From positions 9,419,338-9,483,337 of the forward strand of contig NC_088302.1 of assembly GCF_032854445.1 (NCBI RefSeq): 64,000 bases of DNA, given 5' to 3'. Positions within the stretch are counted from its first letter, which is position 1, and the number at the start of each line of letters is the position of its first letter. The notes under the pieces are model-generated. The model saw nothing but the letters and a program-made list of their open reading frames with translations, had not been told where the DNA came from and did not search any database. Below are positions 29,020 to 47,038 of the stretch, piece by piece. Origin of the DNA: Liolophura sinensis (taxonomy: Eukaryota; Mollusca; Polyplacophora; Chitonida; Chitonidae). Position numbers and translations under genes: made by a program.

Positions 29020-29025
29020 GTCATG
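29020..29025 (+). repeat. Left 6-bp target site duplication GTCATG
   Basis: GTCATG directly precedes the left inverted-repeat end AGTAGTATAG. The same six bases directly follow the right end at 47033-47038. In the Gypsy integrase frame only one copy is needed. Confidence 0.85.
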
Positions 29026-29119
29026 AGTAGTATAGAATGTGGCTTTGGTTCCGTTTTGGGGATTCATTTTTTGTGGTTTTGGGGAGTCATTTTTTGTGGT
29101 GATGTGGTGGTGACGTCAC
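29026..29119 (+). repeat. Left terminal inverted repeat with CRE palindrome
   Basis: 94 bp matching the right end base for base by eye. It contains two TTTTTTGTGGT words and ends in GTGACGTCAC, which includes the perfect cAMP-response-type palindrome TGACGTCA. After it the arms share 13 more bases (GGGTGGGTTTTTT). In the right arm a 48-bp hairpin-forming insert lies between. Confidence 0.85.
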
Positions 29120-29159
29120 GGGTGGGTTTTTTAAACGCCGCGGGGCGTATGTGTATAGA

Positions 29160-29450
29160 CTAGTGTGATATAGTGTACAGTATAACAGTATAGGGGAAAA
29201 AGAGAGAAAAAAAAGAGGCAAAACGTCGGCTTGTAAAGTCGAGTGGGACAGCTCGAAAAGAGCTCCCGGGCGCCAAAACGGGCCAATGGGTGAGCCGGAT
29301 TTGCCCCAAAACTGCCCAATGGGGGGCCCGCAAAAACGGACCAATCAGCGTGCGAGAAGAGGTTACGTAAGAAAAAACGAACCAATCAGCGTGTGGTGAA
29401 TTTCCGCGTGGATAGGATAAAAAGCCGGTGAAGACAGCGACCGGCAGCCC
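29160..29450 (+). promoter_or_regulatory. CCAAT-rich element promoter module
   Basis: Several CCAAT boxes stand in series: CCAATGGGTGAGC, CCAATGGGG, then twice GACCAATCAGCGTG-like words, each preceded by an AAAACG-like word. About 40-50 bp beyond the last is a TATA-like GATAAAAAGCC, followed by GACCGGCAGCC. A related module drives the zinc-finger frame near 43000 on the minus strand, and fragments recur at 33180 and 41222. This looks like an RNA polymerase II promoter of the element. The call is inference. Confidence 0.6.
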
Positions 29451-29733
29451 ACTTAAAACGAAATTCCAAATTCCAAGGATCTACATCAGCCAGCTTCTTT
29501 ACCGTCAGGTAACTCGGCGAATTTCGGTCCACATTTATAATACAAAAATCCATGAAATTAACAAGAAGCTGACAAACAACCAGTTGGCCACCTTCTGGAG
29601 ACACCGGGGACTGATCCGACCACAAAAACAAATTCTAACCAACGACGGAGTGCACCTAAACACTCTAGGCCAGGAACTGTTCTACCGGTCTATGAAACGT
29701 GCTGTCTGCGCCGCCATGGGAGGCCAAAAATAA
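29428..29733 (+). pseudogene. SGNH-hydrolase-like C-terminal fragment
   Basis: The open frame has a RIYISQLLYR block, an IHEINKKL block and DGVHLNTLGQELFYRSMKRA. This order matches the end of SGNH/GDSL esterase domains carried by some retroelement ORFs, where the D-x-x-H pair is catalytic (here DGVH). The N-terminal part with the nucleophile serine is absent, and no ATG opens the frame upstream of this block. A donor-like CAGGTAACT at about 29507 could mark an exon edge. Probably a remnant. Confidence 0.45.
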
Positions 29734-30460
29734 AAATTGGAAATAGAGAAGGAAATCAATTAAAGAAGAAGACAGGGAAAACAATAAGAAGACCCATGGG
29801 ACCAAAGAAACTTAACAACCAGGAAACGAAGACCAGAAACATAAAAGACATCATGACAATAGGACTATCTCTTGCTTCAACTAAGTGGATGAGGCCTGAC
29901 ATCCTTGCTCCTCATTTATACTTGTCGCACCTGTTACAGGCACAGGTTTCCAGTACGCTGGTTTTTCCTGGACGGCGTCCGGTATAAGTGGCGGGAGCCC
30001 CTTAACTCCACGCCACAGAGGAGGAAGCAAGAGAGCAAAACTGTTAACCAATAAATAAAGGCACTACTGTTGTTTTCTCTCTGTGTAAATTTCTGTATAG
30101 GCAACTCATTGTAATTCTTTAATGCAGATCTATGTATTTCTAATGTAAAGATAACGTTAATCTCTGTAAATAGCTTACTATTTATCCCCTTTCTGTTAAA
30201 TGACCATGGCAGCATTTGAACCTATACAATAAGCTGTAACATGCTACCACAAAGAGGTTAATCCCACTAATTGACTCATGTACATATGTAAATAGTATAC
30301 CAACGCACTGCTGTTATGTAACCAAAATATTCATGTGTTAAAAAAAAAAAAAAAAAAACACTGATTTGATGGGCCACGATATCCGCCAGGAAAGTGGCCC
30401 TAAAACCAGTAAATAAACAAAAAAGACCGGCAGCCTCAGACGCACCTGACGCTCTACCGG
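29734..30460 (+). other. Untranslated or spacer DNA of the left arm with an A-run
   Basis: No coding frame. A run of about 18 A at about 30341-30358 looks like an old poly(A) tail, but AATAAA lies about 290 bp before it. After the run comes TAAATAAACAAAAAAGACCGGCAGCC-like sequence, which repeats the TATA-plus-GACCGGCAGCC layout of the promoter at 29430. Confidence 0.45.
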
Positions 30461-30469
30461 CCTGCCTGC

Positions 30470-30635
30470 CTGCTGACGACCCGACCTACTGACCTGCCGA
30501 GAGAAGAGAAGAGAAGAGACTGCTACACGACCTACCTACCTGTACCTACCTGCCTGCCAGCCTGCTGACGACCCGACCTACTGACCTGCCGAGAGAAGAG
30601 AAGAGAAGAGACTGCTACACGACCTACCTACCTGC
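30470..30635 (+). repeat. Tandem duplication in the leader of the PC4-like gene
   Basis: Two copies with a 92-bp period. Each begins CTGCTGACGACCCGACCTAC and includes GAGAGAAGAGAAGAGAAGAG, then GCTACACGACCTACCTACC. They lie just before the upstream ORF and start codon. Confidence 0.8.
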
Positions 30636-30643
30636 CTGGCGAG

Positions 30644-30691
30644 ATGAAACGCTCCACCACCGTGAACCCCTGCATGCTGCCATCAGGATGA
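30644..30691 (+). promoter_or_regulatory. 15-codon upstream ORF overlapping the PC4-like start
   Basis: ATG at 30644 opens a 15-codon frame. Its TGA (30689-30691) overlaps the main ATG at 30688 as ATGA, a layout that can allow stop-restart translation. Its first bases ATGAAACGCTC repeat those of the main frame, suggesting a small duplication of the start region. Confidence 0.55.
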
Positions 30692-32157
30692 AACGCTCAG
30701 CGTCTGTACCCGCCCGGCTATCCACCATAGCCGAACAACAACAGCCTCCCGAGAAGAAGAGGAAGGTGTGCCTGCCCTTACCCAGCGAGGTTCTTGCCAA
30801 ATTACAGCTCGCCTCCTGGCTGTGGGTGGGGGTGTGTAGAGACGAGACGATTGAGATTTGCCAAGCACCGACAGACCCGAACGCTCCACCCAAACGCGTC
30901 AGGCTTGACGGGGTGGGGTGGACTCGGCTCAAGACCCTGGCTGCTGATCTACCTGAGGCGGGTTTACCTGTGCGGGAGCCACTCTCCAACGGGTACTTTC
31001 TGTCCACGCTGAGGAACTCGGAGGGTGTCCTGTACGTTCATGTGAAGAAATGGCGAGCCTACCAGCCGAACGGTCGACTCTACCCGACGAGTGAGGGTAT
31101 CACGCTCAAGTACTGGACTTACTGGCAAAAACTAGTCCAGGCCATCCCCGACATCGACGCCTTGGTGCTGATGGTGATCGAGGCTGGTGATAACGACGAC
31201 ATCCAAGAGCCCCAAGACCCCCAAGAGCCGGGGATGGGGATGGAGATGATGATGGAGACGGAGGAGGATGAGGGGAAGACTGAAGAGACTGGAGAAACTG
31301 GAGGTGAGGTGAATGCTGCTATGAGTGCTGCTTTAACCGCTGCTGTGACGGCTGCTGATGATGCGACTGCCGATGATGCGACTACTGCTGCTACTGCAAC
31401 CCCCAGCATCCCCGACGTCCCAGTGGAAAAGGTGGAAAAGGTGGAAAAGGCGGAGCCGTTAAACCCTGAGCTTGAGACGGCGCTAACAGCCTTGCTGTGG
31501 CAAGCTTACGATGTAGCTCTCCAACCCCACCTCCTCAAGTTACAGCGCGATGTGTACGGTCAACAATCCACCAACACCGCGAGTGATCCATCTCCTCCCC
31601 GACCTCCCTTGCTGGAGAACCGAGAGCTGGCCCTGAGTATCGTGGACGAGGCCCGTATGCGTTACCTGAAAGAGGGAACTGTGTTGGTCAAGTTCATGCG
31701 CCAGGCCCGTAAGACAGCCTCCCTCCCGTGGGCTGTGGAGAAGAGTGTGAAAGACCAACTGCGGCAGTTTTTAAATGAGACGCCGATCAACAAATCGAAC
31801 CCGGCATTCGCCCAGATGTACGTGGAGTATTTGATGACAGCCAACAACCTCTCCGCACCTGACGAGCAGCCTACAATCCGGCCTAACAACCAAGCCAACC
31901 AGCCTAACCAGGCTACCCAGACCACCCAGGCTACGATGACCGAGTGAGTGTGTTTTTGTTTTAACTGCACCACCCTTACCCAGCTTTTTTTTTTTTTGTT
32001 TGTTTTGTTTTTCCCTTCATACATTCTCGTTTTGTTTTTACCTATGTGTGTTTTTTACAGGAAGAGGACTAGGGTGGTGCACGTTATAAACATTGACCAG
32101 TGTCAGGACTTTCATATTGGCGATACAATCGTCATCACGAGACATTTCTCACCGTGA
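30688..32157 (+). CDS. Element protein with two PC4/Sub1-like domains
   Basis: Exon 30688-31943 ends at a clear donor (GA|GTGAGTG). Exon 32061-32157 follows the acceptor TTTTTTACAG. Joined in phase they give 450 aa. Residues about 95-160 match the PC4 (p15, Sub1) single-strand DNA-binding fold: LYVHVKKW, then GRLYPTSEGITL, then YWQKL and IPDIDAL, in the order and spacing seen in PC4. Residues about 30-90 (DETIEICQA, then KRVRLDGVGWTRL) look like a second, N-terminal PC4-like half. The middle (about 175-250) is acidic and Ala/Thr-rich. The C-terminal 200 residues are unfamiliar. A PC-x-KKRKV-like basic patch near the start could be a nuclear signal. Transcription or replication function is inferred from the fold only. 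The 3' part is repeated in the right arm. Confidence 0.7.
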
Positions 32158-32399
32158 CACCAAAATAATGGACACTTACAGCATGTATTTATTCGGTCAT
32201 TCGTTTGTTCACTGTTCGAGTTCGAAAAAATAAATAAAAAAAGTTTTCAGGTTGACGACCCTGGTCTTTTGTGTTGGTTATTGTCTTTACCTGTTGGTGA
32301 AGGGATAGTCTATCTATCTATCGTTTTGATTGATGTGGCTAGGGTTCGGTCGGTGACGGCATTAGAATGACGACGGTGTCTTCTTTATGTCTTTTCTAG

Positions 32400-32657
32400 C
32401 TCCGTACAACGCCGCAATGGAAAGACTGGGTAGCTGTCGTCACCGACCTGCAAAGCTACACAAGTGTACTTCATAGTATGTTTGCGGATGGTAGGGTGAA
32501 CGGGGGACGACTGCAGGTGCTGCAAGCGTACACTGAAGACGTCTGTCAGCATGTCGAGGATTCCCGACCTATTCAAGCGTATTACGTAGAGATTGCTCGT
32601 CCCACATTAATAGAGGTCTATCAACGCTCCGTGTTACATACCTGTACATTGCTGTAA
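32400..32657 (+). CDS. 85-codon frame conserved in both arms, function unknown
   Basis: A TTTTCTAG acceptor at 32399 opens a frame of 85 codons to TAA. From its PQWKDWVAVV start onward, 81 residues are the same in the right arm at 46320-46568 (minus). There the frame begins with ATG, while here the matching codon is ACG. It may be a third exon of the PC4-like gene or a separate small protein. I do not recognise the family. Confidence 0.5.
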   Translation, partial: LRTTPQWKDWVAVVTDLQSYTSVLHSMFADGRVNGGRLQVLQAYTEDVCQHVEDSRPIQAYYVEIARPTLIEVYQRSVLHTCTLL

Positions 32658-33237
32658 ATAATAATACTAATACTGTTACCTTACTATGGAATCCATCCCC
32701 GGTTTTTGTGTTTTCTTTTTTATATGGACTGGGTCAGTGTGTCAGGCTAGGGCTGGTATCTATCCCGATAGCTCCTATGTATTATGTATGGATGCACCAG
32801 CTAGCTGGCTGGCAACAATGTATACAATGTATACAAGGCGCGGCCGAGCAAAAAAAAAAAACCACGTGTCCAAACAAAAACCACGTATCAAAACAAAGCA
32901 CAGCTGACAACATTGTTGGCCTGACTGCAGGCTGGCTGGTGGGTAGGATCGCTCAGCGTGTCTTTGCAACACTGTTCGCCCAGGAAGGCTCACTGCTGCA
33001 GGCAGAGGGTCGGTGTTATGAACCGTAGACCCTGTCGGTGGGATTTTTTTTTGGGTGATCTGCCTGTCTGTCTACCTGCTGGTTGTGGTAGGGATGGATG
33101 GATCGACACCACACCCAAACATGCACGTACACTGGAGACTATACTCTGCTATACTCTACTCTACTCTATACTATATATAGGCGGTGTAGTGGAATAGAGC
33201 ACAGTAGAGTATAGGGGGAAAAAAAAGAGAAAAAACT
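32658..33237 (+). other. End of the left arm
   Basis: The right arm shares the first about 70 bases and then diverges. The last part (about 33180-33237, GAGTATAGGGGGAAAAAAAA) repeats the start of the promoter module at 29190-29215 and stops where cargo DNA begins. No gene is seen between. Confidence 0.5.
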
Positions 33238-33496
33238 TGGATCAGAAAATCTCGAAGCTTATAAGAAACTTGGAGGAGATCAATGTGATGGTATTTCGCA
33301 CATATTTCCAGCATCTATATTTTCACCAACATCCACATATTTAAGCAAGATATGTAACAGCCATTTCTTAAACGGTTAAATTCAATTATTCTTTATCCAC
33401 TAATCTTAAAACACATATACACAAGACAACCAAATGACCATGAAGGAGAAAACGACAACTACCAGGTTATATTAAAAAAATTCTTTTTTTCAATGT

Positions 33497-33502
33497 TTTA
33501 TT
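33497..33502 (-). terminator. Probable poly(A) signal of the RNA-binding gene
   Basis: AATAAA on the minus strand about 265 bp past the stop codon at 33767. It lies inside the cargo close to the left arm. Two 36-bp direct repeats containing GAGAAAACGACAACTACCAG (about 33429-33465 and 33713-33747) flank this 3' UTR stretch. Confidence 0.45.
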
Positions 33503-33766
33503 CTTTTCTATCAAAAATCTGAAATACGAAAGGATATACCGAAACATAAACTTGCAGTACTTGCTATGGGGAACCTAACAGAGCCCATACGTGTAAATGA
33601 TAAAAATGATATTGAAAATAAATGATAAATGGGTGCACTGAACAGCTAATTCGACTTTGAAAAGACCGGTCAAAGCAGGTGTCAAAATGTCTGGCTCTAT
33701 TAGTAGAGATTGCCAAATGACCATCGAAGAGAAAACGACAACTACCAGTAGGTCATCCATGGCTTT

Positions 33767-36700
33767 TCACACGATCTGTTGGAAGCGTTCCACAGGTGGG
33801 TCGGGGTGGTTGGCATAGCTCGGCTGGGTGTAAGGACATGGTGGGCTAATGTACTCTAGGGCTGCAGCACAAAACAATAAACAATTCCAGTTATGCAAAT
33901 AGTTACTTTCCTGGCTAATATTCATTCAAAATATACTTGGGTAACCGCATGCATGTATGTATGTGAGCATTTAACCATTCATTCTTCAAACAAGCTGCTA
34001 AGACACAGAATACCTGATGCATGTCACAAGTGCTTACATAACGGCAAACAGCTCAGCTATGAATAGTAATTTTCAGCAATTAAGTTTTTTGCAGCATGTC
34101 TTATTGCATATTATCCAGTAAAGAAGTTTTTTTATACTTTTCATATACTGTTACAAACATGTAAAATGAGATAGCTCTTACTTTCTTAAATCAAGAAGCA
34201 AAGCTGGTTCAGGAAAGAAAGGAGAAATCAAAGCATACAATGACCACTTATTCAATGATGTATCATAAGTGAAAAAGGGTAGAGCTTGGGCGGTGAAGCA
34301 TTTGTTTGTCTTTCCTTTTTTATCTGGACACTAACTTTACCTTCAAGAGGCACACCTAACTGCATCAAAGTGTACTCCGCTGCAAAAACCTTTGCCCCCT
34401 CAACAGTAGAACACAGTTTATTTGGGGTAAATGGGTTACGATTTGGAAACTGAGTACCGAGAGCTGGTATGGTGATCTGAAAGACAAATGTACTTTACCA
34501 TAGATTAACAATGTAAATGCCTAACATCAACTTCTAAATGACACTTATACATGTATAAATCACAACCACGACATTCTTTTTTCGATTTACTTCAGATCAA
34601 TTATTTTTATAAGATAATTTACTTCTTATTCTTTCTGGTACACATGGACATGATTAATTGTATAAATAAATAATAAAAAAAAGTTACATTCCAGCAAAAG
34701 AACTTGATTCTTATCTCTTCAAACAAGTTTCTTATCAACATTTTGTTGAAACCTATGGTAGTACCTTGTACAAAAAGAGCTCTAAGAGCTGTTGGGCACC
34801 ACTTCCATCCCTTCCCATGAGAGAATGAAGCTGGTATACAGGACTTCCCTATCCATTCTTCTGGCAAAGGTCATCGAGCACCTATAGTGAACATCGTTAC
34901 ATGCATGACACTCTTGATTTACTGAAGCCTCACTAGGGCAATCGGACTATAAATTAAAGGTAATTAGTAAAACAAAAAATTCTTCCACAAAACAAAATCA
35001 TGGTCAAAGGTTAAACACAGAGCCTTGCATTATGACAACTTTCAATGATAACAAAACAGCCAATTTTTTTTTTAGCTATTAATACACCTGATTAACGAAA
35101 TTTAATTCAAAACTCATTACATGTATAGGAAATATTAGATAAGAATTAGTTTCTAAGTATGTTACCTGTTACTTCAAAGTTTAAACAAACACCCATCTTC
35201 AACGAAACTGAACTAACTCACCTTCTGGTTAATTGCACAATCGGTTCATGTCTTTTAGTATGGCGTAGGCAGATTATAGATTTTAAGACTGCGTAATCCT
35301 TTAAGCATGCTCCAGAATAAGTTGCAATGCGCAACTTTTTAATGGGATATGGGACCGGAAACCTTCTGCATTGACAACGATACACACCTCTGCTGGATGT
35401 TTCCTAAAGCCCCACCCCCTCATCATCCCTCGGCCTCGCACAAGGCTTCTGATGCCCATGGGACCTCGCTCTGCCAACGCCCTGCTAACAGTACAAAAAG
35501 CACAAATATTCAAGCTATTTCATGGTAAAAATTATGTGACTGAGCCTTCTTAAAGTTTCTTCTTCCTGCTTTTCCTCCTGAGATGTTCACATAAAATCAA
35601 ATATATTGAGCTATTCAGGTTTGGTTGATGAAACTTAATGCTTCTTTGTATACTTACATGTAAGAAGCTCATAAAACGTTTTTTTGAGGACATTGCATGG
35701 ATAACACATAAATGCAACTTCTTTCACGTCAAATGACTCTATCAACCACAATGGCAAAACCACTAAATATGGTAGTGTACCTTTCCAACATGTATGCTGT
35801 TGAATGGAAAGCTACAGAGTGACAATTAAAGAATATAGGTCACAGGTGGTACGAAGTTCACATTAATTCTTGGCAAAAAGCAAGCCCCTACCATTCAATA
35901 AAATCGCCTGTTTTCAATAAAGCTATGCCTTGCACAGTCTTGCAAATATTTCTGCTCCATGTGAAGCACCTTCCAACTGAAATCCGTCATTACCTCATTT
36001 TGGGTTTCAGTTGCCAAAGTAGACTTACCCATGTCATTTTTCTAGTTCTCACTCTGTACTCTGTATCCATTAGCATATCAGCAGGAGAGCTACAATACTG
36101 TACTTTGTAAAACCCACTTACATATGCTTATTTACAGTTACAGTTATTACAGACAAATCATAAGGTAAAATTTAATCTTAGGTTATCTAAGATTTCATCT
36201 TAGATGATCACAACTGAAATGATTTAAAACCAAAGACAAATATCCTGTTCCTGGTCTGAAACACACAAATGACAGAGCATCTGACACTTCTGAGAACCCT
36301 GATATTAAACAGACAAACTGGACACACACGGTGGAATATGACAACCTATGCTCTTAATTCCGCAAATATTGTTCTAAGCTAACCGATTTTTTATAAAAAT
36401 TCCAAGAATACAACTCTATTCTGACTGCAAGATCATCTGCTGTGCTGGATTCTCATCTGTATTCTTATATTGGGTGAACAGAGTTGTGGATTTCAGGCCA
36501 AAATAGTTCTTACCTTGCGGGTGGTGGAGACATCGGGTTGTAATACAATGGAGGCGAGTAACTAGGATCATTGCCATAGCCCTGAAAAATTTGTCACAGT
36601 ATCAAGTACACTTGTCATACAACCAAAGCATGCATAACCCCCTACCTTAACATACGAGGAACTCTTACCCTGACATAACAGAGCCCACTACCCTGACATA

Positions 36701-39700
36701 TGAGGAACTCTTACCCTGATACATGAGGACCTCCTACCCAGATATATGAGAACCCCCTACCTTAACATATGAGGAACTCTTACCCTGACATAACAGAGCC
36801 CACTACCCTAACATACGAGGAACTCTTACCCTGACATAACAGATCCCACTACCCTGACATATGAGGAACTCTTACCCTGACATATGAGAACCTCCTACCC
36901 AGATATATGAGAACTCCCTACAGATATATGAGAACCCCCTACCTTAACATACGAGGAACTCTAACCCTGACATAACAGAACCCCCTATCCTACCACATGA
37001 GGAACTCTTACCCTGACATATGATACTTCTTTCTGCTTCCAAGATTCCAACGCTTCCTGGCCTCTGTTGTATGCTCTATCAACCTCACCCAAGTGGAAGT
37101 CCTGATTAGCCTGCAATAAAGAATTTTCATCAGTAGTAAAATTCAATTATTTACCTGATATAAATATATATAAATAATTTGGTTTTTATATGCAAAGCTT
37201 ACTTCACACCTATCCTACCACATGAGGAACTCTTACCTTGACATATGATACTTCTTTCTGCTTCCAAGATTCCAACGCTTCCGGGCCTCTGTTGTATGCT
37301 CTATCAACCTCACCCAAGTGGCAGTCCTGATTAGCCTGCAATAAAGAATTTTCATCAGTAGTAAAATTCAATTATTTACCTGATATAAATATATATAAAT
37401 AATTTGGTTTTTATATGCAAAGCTTACTTCACACACACCTGACATATGAGAACCTCCTACCCAGATATATGAGAACCCCCTACCTTAACATATGAGGAAC
37501 TCTTACCCTGACGTAACAGAGCCCACTACCCTAACATACGAGGAACTCTTACCCTGACATAACAGAGCCCACTACCCTAACATACGAGGAACTCTTACCC
37601 TGACATAACAGAGCCCACTACCCTGACATATGAGGAACTCTTACCCTGACATATGAGAACCTCCTACCCAGATATATGAGAACCCCCTACAGATGTATGA
37701 GAACAACCTACCTTAACATACGAGGAACTTTTACCCTGACATAACAGAACCCCCTAGCCTACCACATGAGGAACTCTTACCTTAACATATGATACTTCTT
37801 TCTGCTTCCAAGATTCCAACGCTTCCTGGCCTCTGTTGTATGCTCTATCAACCTCACCCAAGTGCCAGTCCTGATTAACCCGCAATAAAGAATTTCCATC
37901 AGTAGTAAAATTCAATTATTTACCTGATATAAATATATATAAATAATTTGGTTTTTATATGCAAAGCTTACTTCACACATACACGACAGATGAGTTTACA
38001 ATGGTGAAAGAAAGCTGATGGGGGAAAAATGTGGACAGGTCCCGGTTTCCGACCAAATACCTTCCACAAACTCTCAATTTGAAAACATTTGAACTCTTCC
38101 AACTTAACACAGTTTACTCCACATACTATGTTGCAAACAAACTTAACCTATGGAAGAGGATGATCGTTGGGCTGTCCTGAATTACACATTTGAGACGATT
38201 TTCACGATGTGGCAGCAACATTGACCAAATGATTTCTTACCTGCTCTCTTCCTTTTGCCCATGCAACCTCAATGTAAGCACCTTCAACATTCATTCCTAG
38301 AGAGAAATATACATGACTTATTATATAATGCCTTCCCACCTTGATCTTCCTTTAATTTTATTTCTTGAAAGAATGAGGACGTAGTACAAATGCTACACAT
38401 CAGTTAAAAAAGTGTTCCAGATACAGTCTACCTAGAGTTTCTCCCAAAGAAAACTTCTTATTTTCTCAAAAAATTCCTGGCAAAATAGTCCTGGGAGCTT
38501 GGGTTCAATATTCAGCCTATTACATGTAACTGTTGAAACAACTTCCCTCTTTTAAACATTTGATCATTTAATGTTCAACAGCTTCTTTTCATGCTGAATG
38601 ATTTATTGATTGGCGCGTTTTTACGCTGTACTCAAGAATATTTCACTTATACGACGGTGATCCGCATTATAGCATGAGGAAACCAGGCAGAGCCTGGTGG
38701 AAACCCACAACCATTCACAGGTTGCTGGCAGACCTTCCCATCCATGTTGAATGAGGGGTGATATTAAGTTAATAATAAGCTAACATAAAATCCAATTTAT
38801 ACAGAAATTTATCCAAACAAATATTCTAGAGAATGCCCACACCTTATGTTTTGAAGTGTGAATTTATACTGTATGTGCTCTTCTGTAAATATATGTAAGT
38901 CTGTCCCATAAATGTGAGCCATTTCCTGTACATAGTTGGAGTATCAAACATCCTATAGGCAAGCGATGTGTCAGTTATTCACTGTTTCATCTTAATTACT
39001 TGAGTTAGCATGTTTTCCAAATACTCTCCCTTAGATGTTGGTGGATATTCTATCATGTAATTTTCTGTAAACATCAATCAAGTGAAAAACTAGTTAAAAC
39101 ATACTAATGTGCCACATGCGACTGACAAACGAAAATGAACTTTTACTTATCAGAAACAGAACTATCCGAATGGAAATATATCACACTCTATAAATGCACA
39201 CAAAAAACTACATTCACCTACCGATAGAAAAAATATACTTCCGTTAATGCATTTGTATTTATCCAAAACCAATCAACACAACTCCAAAATAAATAATTTT
39301 TCTCACCATTAAGTTTAGTCATGGTCATGATAGCAGCATCTCTGTCTCTAAAATGAATGAATGCATAATCTCTTATCTTCTTTACTCTTTCCACAGCGTT
39401 GTCTCTTCCCACAACTTGACTGCACAGCTTTCTAATTTTGTCTTCTGTAGTTGTCGACATAAGGTTCCCCACGTGCAAAACCACCCTCTGTAATACAAAT
39501 ATGCACAACATAAATATTATTCCAGTCATACAAATATGCACAATATTAATGTACAAGATGACGACGCATCAGTGCTTTTCAGCCATAAGTGACTATATTA
39601 ATTATCACCACAGCCTCCCATACAAAAGAAATCACTTGTTGCAAGAAATGTTGCGCGCGCGCGCGCACACCACCTTCTCGAGACGGAAAATGAAAGAGCA

Positions 39701-40387
39701 GACGATAAGAAATTTCAAGAAGTTACGCGACATTTTACACATATCCACCCACACAAAATCTGATACACTCTGATACAAAATTTTTTAGTTCAATTATAAC
39801 TTTTCAAATAACGGCTTACATAAAGGTCAAATTTGTTTGGACTGTGATACCTACTCGTGAATTTTACAACTAACCAACCGATATTTCCGACGTCTGGTGC
39901 CGTCTACATTGGCAATTAAATGTGTTTTAATTTGCAACGAAGAGACAACCAAAAAAGCTTCTATAGTGGAAATTACATGACTTACAGGAGAGTTGCGAAC
40001 ACCCAAGAGCTGGTCTTTACGAATTTCGTAGTTGTGAAGCTCCTTTACCGCTTGATTCGCGTGTTCTTTGTTAGTGTATTTAACGAATCCATATCCTCTA
40101 TGGAGTTCAGAGCGGGCTTCCATTACGAGTTTCAGTTCGTAAATCTTCCCTATCTTCTCAAATACTGGAACGAGCTCGTCTTCGTAACAGTCTTTTGGAA
40201 TACCTCCGACGAAAATTTCGCAACTCTTTAAAGGAGCCGGGCTTTCCCAGTCGGGAGGTGGACCGCCGTACTTTCTTTCCCATTTTTCTTGCCGTATGGT
40301 GTATCCTGTTCTTGCCATAAGTTTCAGCGAGGCTTCGTTTAGCTCCCAGGTCACACAACGCGGCAAAGCCGCCTCCGCGGACGCCAT
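33767..40387 (-). CDS. A1CF/RBM47-like RNA-binding protein lacking RRM2, carried in the element
   Basis: RNA-editing/splicing cofactors of this family have three RRMs and a C-terminal DSRM-like fold. Exons join in phase: 39986-40387, 39307-39487, 38241-38296, 37012-37110, 36514-36581, 35388-35481, 34341-34476, 33767-33861 (376 aa; 409 if the copy at 37237-37335 is also used). TGYTIRQ and KYGGPPPDW (residues 27-47) are the family's N-terminal signature. RRM1 has EIFVGG (57) and RGYGFVKY. The next exon goes straight to VLHVGNLM and RDYAFIHF, which match RRM3, so RRM2 is missing. A basic RGRGMMRGWGF stretch and the AAEYTLMQLGVPLE helix of the C-terminal domain follow. The ATG is at 40387 with G at -3 and +4. 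The frame is open throughout, so it may be functional. It lies wholly inside the mobile element. Confidence 0.85.
36640..37004 (-). repeat. Intronic minisatellite bearing 5' splice-site copies
   Basis: Units of about 44-46 bp. On the plus strand they read GAGGAACTCTTACCCTGACA plus ATAACAGAGCCC or ATATGAG variants. On the transcribed (minus) strand each full unit contains TGTCAGGGTAAGAGTTCCTC, the same bases as the real donor of the 99-bp exon at 37012. About six units are seen. Confidence 0.8.
37237..37335 (-). other. Second copy of the 99-bp exon, splice sites intact
   Basis: 33 codons in phase 0 on both ends, with acceptor TTATTGCAG and donor AAG|GTAAGAG intact. It differs from the copy at 37012 by few changes, including Phe to Cys at codon 5 and Arg to Lys at the last codon. 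It could be used as well as, or instead of, the downstream copy without a frame change. About 95 bp of flanking intron is duplicated too. Confidence 0.8.
37440..37772 (-). repeat. Second intronic minisatellite block bearing donor-like sites
   Basis: The same repeat family as 36640-37004, here with about five units, lying between exon copies two and three. The block and the exon copy seem to have been duplicated together. Confidence 0.8.
37781..37879 (-). pseudogene. Third copy of the 99-bp exon, acceptor destroyed
   Basis: First of the three copies in transcription order. The 33-codon frame and donor (AAG|GTAAGAG) remain, but the acceptor reads TTATTGCGG instead of TTATTGCAG. The invariant AG is GG. 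It is probably skipped, or spliced only at a cryptic site. Confidence 0.75.
38605..38745 (-). repeat. SINE family A, 3' part, reverse
   Basis: Reverse-complement blocks GTACTCAAGAATATTTCACT, GAGGAAACCAGGCAGAGCC and CAGGTTGCTGGCAGACC in an intron of the cargo gene. The cargo thus holds the same SINE as ordinary chromosomal DNA here. Confidence 0.85.
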
Positions 40388-40474
40388 ACCTACACCCTGC
40401 TGCACCCTGCTGGTCTCACTGCTGACGAACTAGAAGTAGGCAAACTGGACTTTACCACGCATGTGCGTGGACTT

Positions 40475-40956
40475 AGAAGAGCCCTACAGCGCCATCTATG
40501 ATGTCCAATAATTATTGTTTTATTCAAATTTACATAGAAATGTCACCAAATCCAGAGAATATGACCACAGAAACGTGTAAGGCAACATATAGGTAAAAAA
40601 ACAAGCTGATAACTTGGAGGGACACGGTTATGTAGCACTCGCTGTGCCACTGCGAAAGCAGTTCACCCGTGAGTCTCAAGTATCGAAAATTGAACCATTC
40701 ATAGTACGAAATGTGAGAAGAGCCCTACAGCGCCATCTATGATGTCCAATAATTATTGTTTTATTCCAATTTACATAGAAAAGACACCAAATCCAGAGAA
40801 TATGACCACAGAAACGTGTAAGGCAACATATAGGTGAAAAAATAAGCTGATAACTTGGAGGCATACGGTTATGTAGCACTCGCTGTGCCACTGCGAAAAG
40901 CAGTTCACCTGTGAGTCTCAAGTATCAAAAATTGAACCATTCATAGTACGAAATAT
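40475..40956 (+). repeat. 241-bp tandem duplication upstream of the RNA-binding gene
   Basis: Two adjacent copies with a 241-bp period (40475-40715, 40716-40956). Each starts AGAAGAGCCCTACAGCGCCA and ends near CATAGTACGAAAT, with very few differences. They lie about 90 bp upstream of the start codon, so promoter elements may be doubled. Confidence 0.85.
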
Positions 40957-41221
40957 GGCATGTGTTTATACTTCAGTGAGTGTTCGGCTATACCAACTAT
41001 CTGGGTGATTGAAAATGACCCAAATCCAATCTACTATCGCTGACATCGATTTGACAACAGGCATTGTCCTGTGTAATATTCAAAAATAGTAAAAACAAAT
41101 TTTGTTTTCGCGTGGTTCTAGCTTCTGCATTGTCTTCTAGAACAGCTTATCACGTTCCAGGCAAACTTTCGCACTGCGACGTCCAATGAGCGAGGGACAT
41201 GACAGACCTATGAGCGCGACA

Positions 41222-41263
41222 AGGAGCAAAACGTTGGCTTGTAAAGTCGAGTGGAGCAGCTCC
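41222..41263 (+). promoter_or_regulatory. Fragment of the element promoter module
   Basis: AGCAAAACGTTGGCTTGTAA and GTCGAGTGGAGCAGCTC match 29217-29262 with few changes, on the same strand. The matching module in the right arm is on the opposite strand near 43070-43115. It stops where the host exon copy begins. Confidence 0.7.
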
Positions 41264-41278
41264 AACAGCTCCATGCTA

Positions 41279-41355
41279 TGCCGGCTATGCCAACCACCCC
41301 GACCCACCTGTGGAACGCTTCCAACAGATCATGTGATCAGCCATGGATGACCTAC
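41279..41355 (+). pseudogene. Copy of the last exon of the RNA-binding gene
   Basis: Same sense as the exon at 33861-33743 (minus) but here on the plus strand: CTATGCCAACCACCCCGACC through TGTGGAACGCTTCCAACAGA to a TGA stop, then CCATGGATGACCTAC of the 3' UTR. It differs at few sites (GTG to ATG before the stop). No acceptor is left upstream because element promoter sequence joins it directly. Confidence 0.8.
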
Positions 41356-41656
41356 GGTACATGTATATTGATCCGGCACTTCAATCTTTCAGACATGGAT
41401 ATACATGTATAACTTAGATTAGGGCCTGTAAACTAAACACCTGCCTAAACATGGCCCGCATGAGAAAGGTTTGTATTATAATGTGTTATAATAAAGACCG
41501 TATATTTTGACAAATAGAGTTAATTTTTTTTTTTCTTTTTTCATTTTGAAATTTCAGTTTAATTTTCTATCATCTGTATCGATCAATTATACTGCTGGTT
41601 TAATATACAGAACCTGTTAAGTATACATGACACGTCTGAGTAAAAGTCAGACTTAC

Positions 41657-41709
41657 CTGGTGACGACACCCGCCTTGATTACTATAGGCTTGATTCTGGG
41701 ATCGACCAT
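41657..41709 (-). pseudogene. TBCA: Lone first exon of tubulin-folding cofactor A
   Basis: Minus-strand ATG at 41709 opens 17 codons plus two bases, to a strong donor AG|GTAAGTC. The peptide MVDPRIKPIVIKAGVV closely resembles the conserved TBCA N-terminus, and the donor phase suits a first exon ending in Arg. No later TBCA exon is visible in the window on this strand. CTTACAG stands two bases before the ATG and could serve as an acceptor. It is most likely a captured or duplicated exon; a real gene with very distant exons is less likely. Confidence 0.6.
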
Positions 41710-42265
41710 GGCTGTAAGGAATCAGTGACAAATCCGAACGTTATCTGAAGACGCCGCGTTTGGGCTTACTCTTCAGGAGATGCACTTACAATTTCTGCTT
41801 TTCTGACTGCTGTTGTTGTAGAGATGAAAGCGGCTTCTGCAAGATGGCAACAGTACCGAACAGCAGACGTTCATGATAAGACCGGAAGTACATCAACAAC
41901 AGACGGAGCAGTTACCTCCCGTATTCCATATTATACTGATAGAGTAAAGCGTCCGCAGAGGCCCACTGCATCCACACGTGAACAAATACATATACATGGG
42001 AAATGAAAACCATTACTGAAAACAGAGCTAAAGAAATACTGATTTCTGGACTTCTGATAACGTTTGTTTCACCCATAGAGTACATATAAAAGTGTACTTG
42101 TTTGGGTGTTTATTAAGTCTCGGATTAAGGCAGTCTATCTTAATCCCAGATTGAACTCACTTGAACTCTTTGATAATTCCTGGTACAAATTATCCAGTTT
42201 CTGAGTTAAGAAAACAAGTTTTTAGAACTATAATCTATATGTTAATCTACTACATGTATATGACA
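41710..42265. other. Stretch without a recognised gene
   Basis: Upstream of the TBCA-like exon. A 60-codon plus-strand frame at 41824-42006 starts in a GAGATGA context but shows no motif I know. Confidence 0.35.
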
Positions 42266-42267
42266 TG

Positions 42268-42490
42268 TGACCCAAGAACCTCTCCACACTGGGGTCGCTG
42301 TGAGTCCAGTTCATGCTGGCTTCCTTTCGTGCCGTACATGGGGAGGTCTGCCAGCAACCTGCCCATGGTTGTGGGTGTCCTCTGGGCTATGCACAAATTC
42401 CTCCCACCAAAATGTTGGTCGCCTTTGTATAAGTAAACATTTCTTGAGTATGACGTACACCACCATTGCCCAATCAAATCAATAAATGAA
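42268..42490 (+). repeat. SINE family A, lacking the head
   Basis: CCAAGAACCTCTCCACACTG, GTCTGCCAGCAACCTGCCCA, CTCCCACCAAAATGTTGG and a 3' block ending TTCTTGAGTATGACG, with an AATAAATGAAT tail. Confidence 0.85.
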
Positions 42491-42627
42491 TAGTAAGCAA
42501 GGCAGGGATGTCCATACCACGACCATGTTTCAACTTCCAAAGATAATTTGCTCATTCCTGTAATGTTGTGTTGGTGTTAAAAAAGTGTTCATAATAATAA
42601 AATAAAAAATAAAAAAAAGAACTTACC

Positions 42628-42959
42628 TGGCTGTGTTCCCCACGTTGATGGACACGCCAGTCCCACAATCGGTAAAAAGTTTTACCACAGGCAATCGCAC
42701 ACACGCTCGTTGTTTTTTTCCATGCTCCCGCTGGCAGCGCACCAAATGCTCCCGTCGGGAAAACGCCCGCCCGCAGGTTGGGCAGGTGAACCCTTTTTTC
42801 TGGGGTTGGTGGTGTGTATGGTGGTGAGGTGTGGTGGTGCGTCTGCTGGTGACGCAGCCAGTCATCCCACCGACTGAAGTCCCTGGCGCACATCATGCAG
42901 GTAAACGGCTTCTTCTTCTTCCCTTCACCTGCATGATTTCCATCTCCATCTCCAACCAT
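42628..42959 (-). pseudogene. C2H2 zinc-finger frame split by two poly-A frame changes
   Basis: ATG at 42959 is followed by a basic stretch and three finger-like units. Finger 1 (PFTCMMCARDFSRWDDWLRH) is in the first frame. Finger 2 (FTCPTCGRAFSRREH) is in another frame, and finger 3 (CAIACGKTFYRLWDWRVH) is back in the first. The shifts fall at an A6G run (42794-42799, complement) and an A7C run (42713-42719). The exon ends at a strong donor CAG|GTAAGTT (42628). Either homopolymer indels broke it, or it uses slippery sites, or the assembly is wrong there. The role is unknown. Fingers of this type often bind DNA. Confidence 0.6.
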
Positions 42960-43225
42960 TCTCGCGCGCGGATAGGTCCGTTTTGGGGGCCATCCATTGG
43001 TCCGTTTTGGGGGCAAATCCCGCTCACCCATTGGTTCGTTTTTGGCGACAAAGAGCTCTTTTCGAGCTGTCCCACTCAACTTAACAAGCCGACGTTTTGC
43101 CTCTTTTTTTCACTCCCACTACCACCACTGCCCCTATACTATACTCTATTATACTACACTCCACTCTAGTATACACACCCCGTCGTGGAAAAAAAAAAAC
43201 CCACCACCACCACTACCTGACACAC
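42960..43225 (-). promoter_or_regulatory. Promoter module of the zinc-finger frame
   Basis: On the minus strand this repeats the layout at 29120-29330: GGTGGGTTTTTTTTTTT, a TATA/ATAG-rich tract, AGAGGCAAAACGTCGGCTTG, AGCTCGAAAAGAGCTC, then CCAATGGGTGAGCGGG and CCAATGGATGG. The ATG of the zinc-finger frame follows. It ties the zinc-finger gene to the element. Confidence 0.6.
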
Positions 43226-45270
43226 ACCTGACACGTCACTCCATGCGCAAATAAGGCAAACACAACAGAGCAGATTAAAATGACTGCATCTTGGGAAGGG
43301 CAGCCCAAATTACCGAAAAGCTCCTGATTAACCTTTGAATGACGAAGGCAATTCAAGAATGAATAACCATTTATGCGAATGTCTCATAAATTCTTGAATA
43401 ATGTTGAGTCGTACATGTAGCGATTGGACCATATGTGATATAGGGGACAACAAAAATAAATCTGTACTTCCACTTCACTGCTAAATGTTAACAAGAATGT
43501 GGAATAACCCACCTTCCAGCTACAGGTTTTCAAATGACTTAATGCTTGAATTAAAAAGTATACATATGTAAAAATAAAACAAGCATCATTACGTTGTCTT
43601 TTTTTACCTGAGACACGCGTAGTGATACATGACCTAACCACTCCCATCACCATCCGCCCACGCTAAATAGTCCCCCTTACATAACTCGTTCTCGCGCGCT
43701 TATCTACATGGAGTAGAAAAAAAACACATCCAAATGTCACCTACATAATTACACGCAGTAGACCATATCACTTCAACGAGTCGTCTATAACCTAAAAATT
43801 TTTTATACATAATACATAGGAACCATCCAGATAGGTAGGTAGCCGTGGCTTGTCAGCTGTGGTTGATCATGCGTGGTTAATCACAGCCCGACTGGTTGGT
43901 AACACTGTATACAAGACCGTCTACGGTGAACAGCACGGTCGGTTGGATGCTATGCCTGCCTGGCTGACAACAATGTTTAGGCAGGGTGGCAGGCTGGTCG
44001 TCGCTCAACAACCGTGCGGCTCGCCGGACTGATTTCGTTGACGTCCGCGCTCCGCCACAGGCCAGGTGGCACGTTTGCCGGATTCTCTGGTCGGGGGAGA
44101 CCCCTAACAGATACACTACAACGTGTGACTCAGTGACTCAATATTACAATGTAAACAATGCTTTATATATAAAATGAGACGTACAGTGTTACAGACAGTT
44201 CAACAACAACAACATAAAAAAACATACACATCAGTATTACCGATCTTTACAAGTTTCCAGTTCACCTTTGCATCCCAAGGAATGTATTCCAGGAATTCCA
44301 ATGTAAAGACCATGGGATAAACACACAATTCACACAAGTCACAAATTGTCCTAGACAGGTACTTCGCCAGGTTAGCGAACACGAACACAGTACACAGGTT
44401 ACACAGAACTGGAACAGTCAAGCCTTTGAATGACGTCACACCCGCAGAGCACAACACAGGGTAAATACAGGCATGGAGGTATAATCCACTTCAGATCAGT
44501 TACAGCTCCCGCAGAAGCTCACAAACGAGCCGTTCAGAGACGTAGAGTAATGTCACCTTGTGGCAGAACGAACGTCCTTTGCAAAACTGAAAACTTCAGT
44601 TTAGAGTCCTTGACGACCTTGTCGGTCAGGTGAGGTCAGCGTGTTAAACAAACTACACAGTCAACACTGTATAATCATAATAAAGATCCGAACACCAATA
44701 AACGTGACTTCCGCAGAAATTCACATAAACCAGACATCAGTACTACTGTGGTACACAAACGGTGCCGGCATAAAAATCTGTCCTCCCAAATGAAACTGGC
44801 ATCACCAGCTCATATCAAAATAATGGACTCGATACGAGAGCGTCTCACACTCTCCTGGCTCCCAGTGGATGGAGCAAAAATACCTCCACTCTGCACAGAA
44901 AACACGGCTTATATACGTGCCAGGTGGATTCAACTATTCTTAGACACAGAATTAACAGCCAATGAACAGCCAGTTAAATAAACAGAGCATTGAACAATGT
45001 GCTTTCGGCCAGGTCCGCGCTGTACATATATAACAGGGCCTGTTATGCTTATAACATATAACACAAAGGTCCGCAGACTAACAGTACATGAAAACGTTAA
45101 ATAGTCATACATAACAATATGTACGATGCTGGGTCGGAAGTAAACCACCGGCGTTCGTTAAGTCACCCACAGGCTTTCCCGCACACGACCGGCAGATATT
45201 GGTAAAAGGCTAGTGATCCATACGGTCATACATCATTTGAAGAACACAAGTCATAAGTAGAAAACTATTG
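43226..45270. other. Right-arm spacer, no recognised gene
   Basis: Mixed sequence. The part near 43860-44010 weakly resembles 32790-32960 of the left arm (GGCTGACAACAATGT-like and GTATACAA-like words). A 77-codon frame at 44748-44981 is unrecognised. A TGACGTCA palindrome lies near 44432. Confidence 0.4.
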
Positions 45271-45271
45271 G

Positions 45272-45336
45272 TGAGAGGCTTCTGGGTCATTACGCTGCGC
45301 TATCGCGCTAACCGACTGAGCCACGGAGGCCCCTAC
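45272..45336 (-). repeat. SINE family A, head only, reverse
   Basis: The minus strand reads GGGGCCTCCGTGGCTCAGTC, then GGTTAGCGCG and TAATGACCCAGAAGCCTC: the tRNA-like head without body or tail. The A box is intact. Confidence 0.8.
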
Positions 45337-45732
45337 GTGTAAATATGTCCCTTCACCTGGTTGCAGTTAGCTATACAAGACATATCATTATAAAATAAGT
45401 TTCGAAATAATAAATTCACTTTAATAATATACTACTACAGTAAAATCTGCACACTCATAACCTGATATTAAAACAAATGGATTTCATATGAAGAATTTTA
45501 CTAATGCGACATATCTGCATGCATCATTCAAAAGCCAGTTTAAAGACTTAAGAGTCTAATAACCGTTAACATTCTTTGTGTGACTGAAAAGAGTGGAAAT
45601 GTGGGATAAACTGTGCCTTTTTGTCCTGTTGTTAAACATTTTCATGGTAGAAAATGACCCTGAACAAAAGGTATCTACTCTAATAAAACCGAATTGAGAT
45701 ACATGTGAAAAGTTGAATTACGCCCAAACTAA

Positions 45733-46256
45733 TCTTGTTGTCAGTCACTTCTTCATTGCCACGGCTATAACCCTTGTTGTCAGTCACTTCTTCATTGTCA
45801 CGGCTATAACCCCTGTTTCCAGTTACTTCCTTATTGTCACGGTCATAACCCTTCTGATCAGACAACTTTTCTTGACGGGAGTTATAACCCTTGTGGTCAG
45901 GCAATTCTTTCTGCCTGCTTTCATAACTCATGTGATTAGACAACTCTTCTTGGCGTGGGGTTATAACCCTTGTGGTCAGGCAATTCTTTCTGCCTGCTTT
46001 CATAACCCTTCTGATCAGACAACTCTTCTTGGCGGGGGTTATAAACCTTGTGGTCAGGCAATTCTTTTTACCTGCTATCATAACCATTCTTGGCGGCGAT
46101 CATAACCCTTGCGATCAGGCAGTTCGTTATACCCGCAGTTATAATCCTTGTCATCACATAAATCTTCCTGATCATGGTTATAAACCGCATGATGACGCAG
46201 ATCTTCTTGGCGGCGGTTACAATCCTTGTAATCAGGCAATTCCTTATAACCATGAT
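45733..46256 (-). repeat. 39-bp minisatellite with a 13-residue repeat frame
   Basis: About 13 units of about 39 bp. On the minus strand they encode variants of a hydrophilic 13-residue unit such as RQKELPDHKGYNS or RDNEEVTDNKGYS, over two frames separated by an indel near 46080. The charge pattern favours the minus strand as the sense strand. The opposite strand is also open because of the repeat. It directly follows the right-arm copy of the PC4 region. Whether it is expressed is unknown. Confidence 0.65.
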
Positions 46257-46319
46257 TAAAAGAAAACACAAAAACCGGGGATGGATTCCATAGTAAGGTA
46301 ACAGTATTAGTATTATTAT

Positions 46320-46870
46320 TTACAGCAATGTACAGGTATGTAACACGGAGCGTTGATAGACCTCTATTAATGTGGGACGAGCAATCTCTACGTAATACGC
46401 TTGAATAGGTCGGGAATCCTCGACATGCTGACAGACGTCTTCAGTGTACGCTTGCAGCACCTGCAGTCGTCCCCCGTTCACCCTACCATCCGCAAACATA
46501 CTATGAAGTACACTTGTGTAGCTTTGCAGGTCGGTGACGACAGCTACCCAGTCTTTCCATTGCGGCATTGTACGGAGCTTCGCCAGGCTAGAAAAGACTT
46601 TATAACGCGCACCACCCTAGTCATCTCCCTGTAAAAAACACACATAGGTAAAAAACAAAACGAGAATGTATGAAGGGAAAAACAAAAAAAAAAAACAAAA
46701 AAAAAAAAAAGCTGGGTGAACAAAAAACAAAACAAAAACACACTCACTCGGTCATCGTCTGGGTGGCCTGGGTAGCCTGGTTGGGCTGGTTGGCTTGGTT
46801 GTTAGGCCGGATTGTAGGCTGCTCGTCAGGTGCGGAGAGTTTGTAGGCTGTCATCAAATACTCCACGTAC
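46320..46870 (-). pseudogene. Truncated right-arm copy of the PC4-like gene 3' end
   Basis: From 46870 down it matches the left arm from about 31828: the end of exon 1 (46748-46870), the 119-bp intron with the same GTGAGTG and TTTTTTACAG sites, and the start of exon 2 (ends at 46628). Then a deletion relative to the left arm (about 300 bp) fuses exon 2 to the 81-residue frame (46320-46568). The PC4 domains are missing. The join to the TIR falls near 46871. Confidence 0.75.
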
Positions 46871-46890
46871 GGCGTGGAAAAAACCCACCC

Positions 46891-46948
46891 GTGACGTCAC
46901 ACCTGCCCCAGTGCCGCCAGCCCTTCGGGCTGGCAGGTGTGACGTCAC
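46891..46948. repeat. Perfect 17-bp inverted repeat next to the right TIR
   Basis: GTGACGTCACACCTGCC (46891-46907) and its exact reverse complement (46932-46948) flank a 24-nt loop. The loop region can itself pair as GCCAGCCC/GGGCTGGC. Both outer ends hold the TGACGTCA palindrome. The left arm has one GTGACGTCAC in place of this structure. Confidence 0.85.
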
Positions 46949-47032
46949 CACCACATCACCACAAAAAATGACTCCCCAAAACCACAAAAAATGAATCCCC
47001 AAAACGGAACCAAAGCCACATTCTATACTACT
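46939..47032 (-). repeat. Right terminal inverted repeat
   Basis: Reverse complement of 29026-29119 with no mismatch found by eye over 94 bp. It ends CTATACTACT next to the GTCATG duplication. Confidence 0.85.
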
Positions 47033-47038
47033 GTCATG
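47033..47038 (+). repeat. Right 6-bp target site duplication GTCATG
   Basis: Follows the right TIR end directly and matches 29020-29025. The Gypsy integrase frame begins again right at this point on the minus strand. Confidence 0.85.

Follow-up and report, generated by a model that had tools for sequence, protein, structure and literature searches.

An interrupted Gypsy integrase gene and the ends of the insertion

The window analysed here, a 64,000-nt stretch of the Liolophura sinensis contig NC_088302.1, harbors a block of 18,007 bp (29026-47032) inserted into a Gypsy integrase gene. The block is a real, single unit. In a self-comparison of the window, its terminal inverted repeats (TIRs) at 29026-29119 (plus strand, starting with AGTAGTATAG) and 46939-47032 (minus strand) are 94 nt long each and 100% complementary. 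The sequence GTCATG, read directly, lies outside both ends (29020-29025 and 47033-47038) as the target-site duplication. Read separately, the two halves of the minus-strand Gypsy frame run into the insertion as ...KACKELQKRDHD (47155-47033) and out of it as HDLRVKQRIYSMIY... (29025-28693), and the duplicated GTCATG provides the same two codons (HD) on either side. The downstream half (28693-29025) was related to Integrase_p58_C in Pfam with an E of 1.3e-5 and 25.6 bits, which is below the cut-off of 27, and the upstream half (47033-47155), which had no Pfam match on its own, was assigned by its frame. Both the inverted ends flanked by GTCATG and the two integrase halves on one strand had been recognized in the first-pass annotation and are confirmed here. 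When the 232-bp left flank was compared with the own genome, the sole match was the flank itself (1 of 1 candidates); no empty site in other Gypsy copies was found in this way.

A family of elements with common ends and Polinton genes

Searching the own genome with the TIR gave 40 matches, the two of the window included. Thirty of these form 15 pairs, as paired by us, and ten are unpaired; 40 of 65 candidates were scored, and the copy number is a lower bound. All 15 pairs, including that of the window, start with AGTAGT and end with ACTACT. Each of them is flanked by a perfect 6-bp duplication, all of which are different, and the flanks of the paired sites differ over the 12-14 bases inspected. 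Since perfect duplications were present in 15 of 15 paired copies, the ends and the duplication in the window are not due to chance. Two other origins, chance TIRs and assembly of the block in situ, were discarded in view of the other copies of the family. A comparison of the TIR with phage records gave no match.

To further characterize the family, ten TIR relatives were fetched. Five of them carry the cargo found in the window (C8c, C4, C437, C7 and C13) and five do not. Stretches related to polB, MCP, a 277-aa ORF, ATPase and PX were detected in all five non-carriers and INT in four of them; some of these are self-matches, as the queries were drawn from some of these elements. Among the ORFs of the relatives, Pfam identified DNA_pol_B_2 (E 1.6e-9) and rve (E 9.7e-12) together with Chromo (E 4.3e-9). 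The polymerase family matched in two of the three ORF pieces scanned (L017 and L028, not the piece from L009), and the rve integrase in L021, L019 and L010. The packaging and capsid candidates were all below the Pfam cut-off (Adeno_IVa2 E 3.6e-4, Pox_A32 E 7.7e-4, Adeno_PX E 0.0032), and the MCP-size ORF had no informative Pfam match.

The block in the window is different. In six frames, no polymerase, integrase-core (rve) or capsid family was matched in Pfam, and DNA polymerase B was not found by comparison with the genes of the relatives either. Like C8c, C4, C437 and C7 it showed only short INT-ORF matches to the Polinton core queries; the carrier C13 retains 618 aa of polB. The earlier proposal that the element lacks its own polymerase and integrase thus holds. 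Because polB is absent from it while related stretches occur in 5/5 non-carriers, the window element is a non-autonomous derivative and not an autonomous member of the family.

Taken by itself, the lack of such matches would also fit another class of DNA transposons with 6-bp duplications. This is very unlikely, as relatives with the same ends and the same subterminal DNA encode polB and an rve integrase, and AGTAGT...ACTACT is the end motif published for vertebrate Mavericks. PMC8097293 gives for the latter the motif 5'-(AGT)2//(ACT)2-3', a length of 12.7-24.6 kb and TIRs of 46-1447 bp. With its 6-bp duplication, its (AGT)2//(ACT)2 ends and relatives bearing polymerase, integrase and candidate ATPase-like genes, the window element resembles the Polinton/Maverick group, and its 94-bp TIRs and 18,007 bp lie within these vertebrate ranges.

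The outer parts of the element are also found in its relatives. The subterminal region (29122-29416, plus strand) is common to both classes at about 93-96%, and both classes contain the ORF of 419 aa at 30688-31944 (plus strand), as seen by ORF clustering. The PC4 label of this ORF is weakly supported by BLASTP against human SUB1 (28% over 54 aa, E 1e-5, one comparison). It had no Pfam and no solved-structure match, and the structure model of its PC4-like part (pLDDT 44) was too poor for use. Queried as single proteins against viral contigs, which reaches close relatives only, neither the PC4-like protein nor the polymerase of a relative found a relative. A weak Bcl-2-like ORF follows at 32400-32654 (plus strand; Pfam E 0.0032, below cut-off). 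The stretch 31818-32719 (plus strand) is repeated inverted, in pieces, at 46258-46870, making up two arms of the element, and 46599-46870 (minus strand) in the right arm is a remnant of the 3' part of the PC4 module. A C2H2 zinc-finger ORF is located at 42555-43109 (minus strand; zf-C2H2 E 5.4e-8), and DNA related to it (about 75%) occurs near the ends of the relatives that bear Polinton genes. Of the PC4 and zinc-finger genes annotated before, the latter is confirmed and the former has weak support.

An intron-bearing RNA-binding gene and its probable donor

Between the arms lies a segment of host-type DNA (33749-40465, minus strand; outer limits of the match to a gene on C6, with 36638-38253 unmatched) that contains an RNA-binding gene with introns. 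In the present model, this gene has nine coding exons and has kept eight introns. Exon 1 (39986-40387) encodes one RRM and exon 2 (39307-39487) part of an RRM. They are followed by exon 3 (38241-38296), exon 4 (37012-37110), exon 5 (36514-36581), exon 6 (35388-35481), exon 7 (34765-34881), exon 8 (34341-34476) and exon 9 with the stop (33765-33861), all on the minus strand. Exon 4, of which the window has three tandem copies, is uncertain because it was not found in the C6 gene. Part of the DND1_DSRM domain is encoded by exon 7 and, judged by position, another part by exon 8. In Pfam, the protein matched RRM_1 in two stretches (E 3.9e-24) and DND1_DSRM (E 1.1e-9), and this combination of RRMs and a DND1-type dsRBD is that of the A1CF/RBM46/RBM47/DND1 class. 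The assignment of the gene (RBM in the following) is to this class as a whole.

The first-pass annotation had described a complete gene with eight exons. Apart from the exon number, completeness has to be given up as well: exon 1 contains one RRM_1 stretch in the cargo and two in the C6 gene, and in the window copy, exon 7 is interrupted by a premature stop, from which the other five fetched copies are free. The second RRM is missing alike in the window, C8c, C437, C7 and C13 (5/5 aligned).

The C6 gene matches the cargo in exons and introns at 86-91%. It has an open frame of 496 aa with two RRMs in exon 1, its exon borders being set by alignment to the window. With blastn, neither the ends nor the subterminal DNA of the block had a match in the 19.5 kb fetched around it. 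The C6 gene is the probable donor of the cargo and, on the basis of its open frame and this sequence context, probably the host's own gene. Copies retaining the second RRM and many derived ones occur in this genome together with the probable donor.

Upstream of the RBM gene, a Polinton subterminal fragment (41221-41268, plus strand; 85% to 29213-29260) is followed by an inverted copy of RBM exon 9 and its 3' flank (41284-41522, plus strand). Next to these is an exon 1 with a splice donor (41657-41709, minus strand, read by eye), which we take to be that of TBCA; 41645-42060 is 89.7% identical to C8:45369500-45369910. As RBM copies lie between TBCA-like exons, the TBCA exon was probably carried along.

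The cargo is not confined to the window. It was found, nearly collinear and with about 94-98% DNA identity, in five of the ten fetched relatives, and the TIR pair on C11 is by its coordinates a further carrier with an exon-1 match inside. Besides the window, at least six TIR-paired copies at different sites therefore carry the cargo (in one, exon 1 only was seen), and this count is a lower bound. Aligning the TIR to the genome, as proposed before, thus yielded both further copies and their cargo. In the five non-carriers no match to RBM exon 1 was found (52/52 candidates scored), and their ORFs fall outside the RBM cluster.

The window alone, with its rearranged arms, would also be compatible with a short Polinton remnant that entered the Gypsy gene first and received the host DNA later at that place, the cargo never having moved. 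That the same cargo lies within other TIR pairs with different 6-bp duplications makes this history highly improbable. The previous view that one Polinton/Maverick-type unit moved the RNA-binding gene and the TBCA exon is instead supported by these other pairs, the polB and rve of the relatives and the intron-matched probable donor. We are thus confident that 29026-47032 is a non-autonomous Polinton/Maverick, from a family that captured and amplified host DNA and was probably moved by intact relatives. Polymerase and integrase would then be supplied in trans, acting on the common ends. The carriers may have originated where an RBM copy lay within a TBCA copy: recombination, or a template switch, close to it would have placed this DNA between Polinton ends and removed the polymerase-capsid core. 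The loss of one RRM would have preceded the spread of the aligned carriers, and the window copy would afterwards have recombined its arms and acquired the stop in the cargo gene. The capture step itself is not visible because the capture junctions are rearranged.

Passenger or accessory gene

The RBM cargo is most likely a passenger. A possible alternative, though an unlikely one, is an accessory gene used by the Polintons and kept because a version without one RRM helps the element. GT and AG are retained at all exon borders seen in 6/6 copies, and the frame is open in C8c, C437, C7 and C4 (exon 1 of C4 was added from a separate exon-1 search), but two of the six fetched copies contain stops. 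As C437 and C7 do not differ in coding sequence, the number of independent copies is small. On C3 and C1, RBM is likewise found beside diverged Polinton-like ends, which would speak for such a use. For two of the C1/C3 loci a single Polinton-like end was seen, and the RBM loci on these contigs could be segmental duplications. One explanation for the C3:27.33M locus, a Polinton lying between TBCA and RBM and reduced to a scar at other sites, was dropped, as this looks like a separate nested element.

The substitution patterns bear on the same question. In the 13 of 15 pairs of RBM copies that have synonymous changes, dN/dS was 0.99-1.90. Within the same family, pooled pN/pS was 0.43 for polB, 0.48 for INT, 0.51 for MCP, 0.50 for the 277-aa ORF (0.19 to 2.55 in single pairs), 0.56 for the PC4-like ORF and 0.92 for ATPase. 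The carrier copies of RBM showed no sign of purifying selection, and their exons diverge more than their introns. Nonsynonymous exceeded noncoding divergence between the window and C8c (45/948 and 67/3971, Fisher p 3e-7), C437 (p 5e-5) and C13 (p 9e-6), all three comparisons sharing the window copy. As this excess over introns is significant whereas dN against dS alone is not (p 0.18), positive selection on the carrier copies is only suggested; base composition could also raise exon mutation. A more far-reaching and rather improbable interpretation is that, in this animal, Polintons of several end-sequence subfamilies have long carried this intron-bearing gene and evolve it under diversifying selection; its product, lacking one RRM, would be an element-borne antagonist of the host protein or a mimic of it. 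If true, a DNA virus-like element would be using a spliced, captured host regulator.

As passenger or not, the cargo sets these elements apart from those described. For intact vertebrate Mavericks, PMC8097293 reports genes without introns, whereas the window copy is devoid of core genes and contains a host-type gene with introns, in a subfamily that is mostly core-less and in which this gene is nearly whole. Nematode Mavericks carry wosp proteases and krma kinases and moved cargo between species (Widen et al., as summarized in the meeting report PMC10680173). The uptake of host-type genes as cargo is similar here; in the present case, the core is missing from most carriers, and the same genome contains a probable donor with matching introns. 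Pack-MULEs and gene-capturing Helitrons are likewise DNA elements that take host DNA to new places, and full-length gene acquisition by them is called exceptionally rare in a review (PMC6431247); in our case a nearly whole gene was taken up, and by a Polinton. The recurrence of the cargo at several other places in the genome suggests that such elements are able to acquire host genes with their introns and to disseminate them. As the probable donor, the copies with the second RRM and the derived copies all occur in one genome, it can be tested directly by which route Polintons capture genes and whether the gene is a passenger or is used by the element.

The interrupted Gypsy integrase and the repeat family

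The block at 29026-47032 of the window (18,007 bp) has perfectly complementary inverted ends of 94 bp, and GTCATG lies directly outside both of them. On the minus strand, the frame of a Gypsy integrase runs up to the right edge of the block (47155-47033, ...KELQKRDHD) and picks up again beyond its left edge (29025-28693, HDLRVKQRIYSM...). The first-pass annotation had claimed the inverted ends, the flanking GTCATG and the split integrase; all were seen, with the duplicated bases forming the same two codons on either side. The left Gypsy piece matched Integrase_p58_C in Pfam (E 1.3e-5, slightly under the cut-off), and the right piece alone had no Pfam match. Further reading frames, which we take to be Gypsy-like, apparently extend up to about 49.9 kb. 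Elsewhere the window holds a galactose-3-O-sulfotransferase gene (26125-27321, minus strand, Pfam E 1.7e-38), an ORF at about 51500 (plus strand) that is presumably coatomer epsilon exon 1, and a tandemly repeated reading frame (55814-56209, minus strand).

Alignment of the terminal inverted repeat (TIR) to the whole assembly (609 Mb, 632 contigs), in which the window occupies C8:9419338-9483337, as the annotation had proposed, gave at least 40 matches (65 candidates, 40 scored). Thirty of these form 15 facing pairs with a spacing of 13.5-22.8 kb, the window counted, and 10 are unpaired. All 15 pairs start with AGTAGT, end with ACTACT and have identical 6-bp flanks, every pair's being different from the others'. 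Both halves were fetched for 10 other pairs, with mid-element gaps of less than 0.9 kb in those on contigs C4 and C13; for the remaining four the ends alone were fetched. In the available part of a vertebrate Maverick survey, (AGT)2//(ACT)2 are the commonest ends, and the elements measure 12.7-24.6 kb, with TIRs of 46-1447 bp and duplications of 6 bp (PMC8097293); the 6-bp duplications and the AGTAGT//ACTACT ends are common to both.

The 10 fetched relatives, named by contig, were divided by blastn of the block, among the matches listed, and by tblastn of seven proteins from the fetched stretches L017, L018, L021 and L027 (E up to 1e-6). Five are non-carriers with Polinton-protein stretches, and five (C8c, C4, C437, C7, C13) hold the window's cargo at different sites. 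Stretches related to all seven proteins were found in C8b, C1, C10 and C80, and to six, without an integrase stretch, in the C6 relative. Pfam identified DNA_pol_B_2 in L017 (E 1.6e-9) and L028 (E 1.5e-10) but not in the scanned L009 polymerase piece, and rve with Chromo in L021, L019 and L010. For ATPase and Adeno_PX, the relatives' matches fell below the cut-off. By tblastn, the carrier C13 has kept a polymerase stretch of 618 aa, the other four 76-98 aa of the integrase ORF, and the window 243 aa of it, summed over possibly overlapping matches. The part common to the carriers probably lies near the ORF start, ahead of the rve domain. Carriers could be mobilised in trans. Genome-wide, PF03175 had at least 82 matches (144 candidates, 91 scored). 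Contig C3, one of the smaller large contigs (27.5 Mb), has many polB matches, among those scored, and nine exon-1 loci of the cargo gene.

The captured RNA-binding gene and its probable source

The cargo is an A1CF/RBM46/RBM47/DND1-class RNA-binding gene (RBM; 40387-33765, minus strand) with RRM_1 and DND1_DSRM matches in Pfam; among solved structures, exon 1 best matched Syncrip, hnRNP R and Dead end 1. The description as a complete eight-exon gene did not hold: nine coding exons were modelled, with AG and GT at all internal borders seen, the second RRM is absent, and exon 7 of the window copy has a stop codon. C13 has a stop codon in exon 3 and breaks off within exon 8, in the half fetched. 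The frame is open over all nine exons in C8c, C437 and C7 and over the eight exons fetched in C4, whose exon 1 was open in the genome search. The second RRM is missing at the same place in the window, C8c, C437, C7 and C13, the carriers with exon 1 aligned, and may have been lost once. It is kept in the copies L029 (C3) and L030 (C1), the latter frame-shifted. Exon 4 occurs in three tandem copies in the window, carried by the roughly 240-bp repeats of a minisatellite (36620-37994) with a step of 23 bp.

Searched against the genome, RBM exon 1 had 34 matches, with all 52 candidates scored. One gene on contig C6, distinct from the TIR-paired C6 relative, encodes 496 aa without internal stop over exons 1-9 minus exon 4, which is absent from its alignment to the window; the same alignment set its exon borders. 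Its exon 1 has two RRM stretches. Introns included, it matches the window at 33749-34050 (90.9%), 34073-35322 (90.4%), 35323-36637 (89.8%), 38254-39987 (86.6%) and 39990-40465 (85.8%), with no match outside the limits 33749-40465. In the 19.5 kb fetched around it (L035, L031, L033), the other block matches were short interspersed stretches only, none from block ends or subterminal DNA. To judge from these alignments, the C6 gene is the probable donor of the cargo, which may have been captured through recombination or template switching.

Next to the cargo, 41657-41709 reads MVDPRIKPIVIKAGVVT by eye, followed by a splice donor, and we take it to be a TBCA exon. With its upstream region it matches C8:45369500-45369910 (89.7%), which reads MADPRIKPIVIKTGVVT. 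Since the RBM copies in L036, L038 and L040 are followed downstream by an exon reading ENEKDLCEVEQYKK..., presumably TBCA-like (disrupted in L043), the captured DNA seems to derive from an RBM copy within a TBCA copy. The exon-9 region is also found inverted upstream in the window, L029/L034, L037 and L056.

Older associations may exist. At C3:27315554 lies an AGTAGT end that shares 75.7% identity with the window TIR across 74 bases, followed by Polinton subterminal DNA and the TBCA part, and at C1:50747169 an AGTAGT end-like start lies ahead of the L030 RBM copy. Because each is known from one end, without a second end or a duplication, these candidates are leads. For C13:9088284, a right end lies at C13:9097333. 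Three more stretches beside RBM copies (L053, L054, L055; 3-4 kb each) had no end motif; L053 matched none of the family's own parts, whereas subterminal-like pieces occur in L054, and TBCA-side and PC4-module pieces in L055. A separate element (C3:27316971-27329378; L056, L057) with AGTAGTATACAGAATAGG...ACTACT ends, CGTTC (5 bp) on both sides and a PF03175 match inside is nested upstream of an RBM copy.

Divergence of the captured copies

Exons are more diverged than noncoding DNA among the RBM copies. Outside exon 4, the repeat-rich stretch at 36.6-38 kb and the stretch at 39.6-39.7 kb, exon versus noncoding differences from the window copy were 46/1115 versus 67/3971 (C8c), 40/1115 versus 67/3951 (C437), 40/1115 versus 65/3951 (C7), 52/1014 versus 78/3471 (C13) and 21/714 versus 59/3600 (C4). 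Nonsynonymous differed from noncoding change for C8c (p 3e-7), C437 (p 5e-5) and C13 (p 9e-6), the window copy being common to all; for C8c, nonsynonymous versus synonymous gave p 0.18 and synonymous versus noncoding p 0.24. dN/dS was 0.99-1.90 in 13 of 15 pairwise comparisons of RBM copies, those with synonymous changes. The family's own genes had a pooled pN/pS of 0.43-0.56 (ATPase 0.92), and the C6 gene versus carriers gave 0.67-0.80 in the rate comparison. There is therefore no sign of constraint on the RBM gene within carriers, and a hint, though no proof, of its diversification there.

Intron-bearing cargo and the PC4 module

Nematode Mavericks with cargo genes are known, as far as the available text tells (PMC10680173). 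The cargo gene here bears introns, whereas in the available part of the vertebrate survey introns were not observed in intact Maverick genes (PMC8097293). Full-text literature search found no report of non-autonomous Polintons or Mavericks, and titles and abstract starts none in which a Polinton bears a host gene with introns; as most subscription journals lie outside these searches, this is no proof of novelty. The available part of PMC11071296 does not mention PC4, Bcl or RHIM.

The PC4 module (a PC4-like ORF with neighbouring reading frames) stands at the left in the window copy, which at its right end keeps a shorter remnant of the module in inverted orientation. In C8c, C4 and C437 it is at the right, likewise in C7 when read in cargo orientation. 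Recombination between the inverted ends would account for this arrangement. Within the module, an ORF at 32400-32654 (plus strand) has weak Bcl-2 similarity (Pfam E 0.0032, below the cut-off) and might give the element an anti-apoptotic function. The stretch at 32061-32150 (plus strand), perhaps a 3' exon spliced to the PC4-like gene, reads ...NIDQCQDFHIGDTIVIT..., which may resemble a RHIM core.
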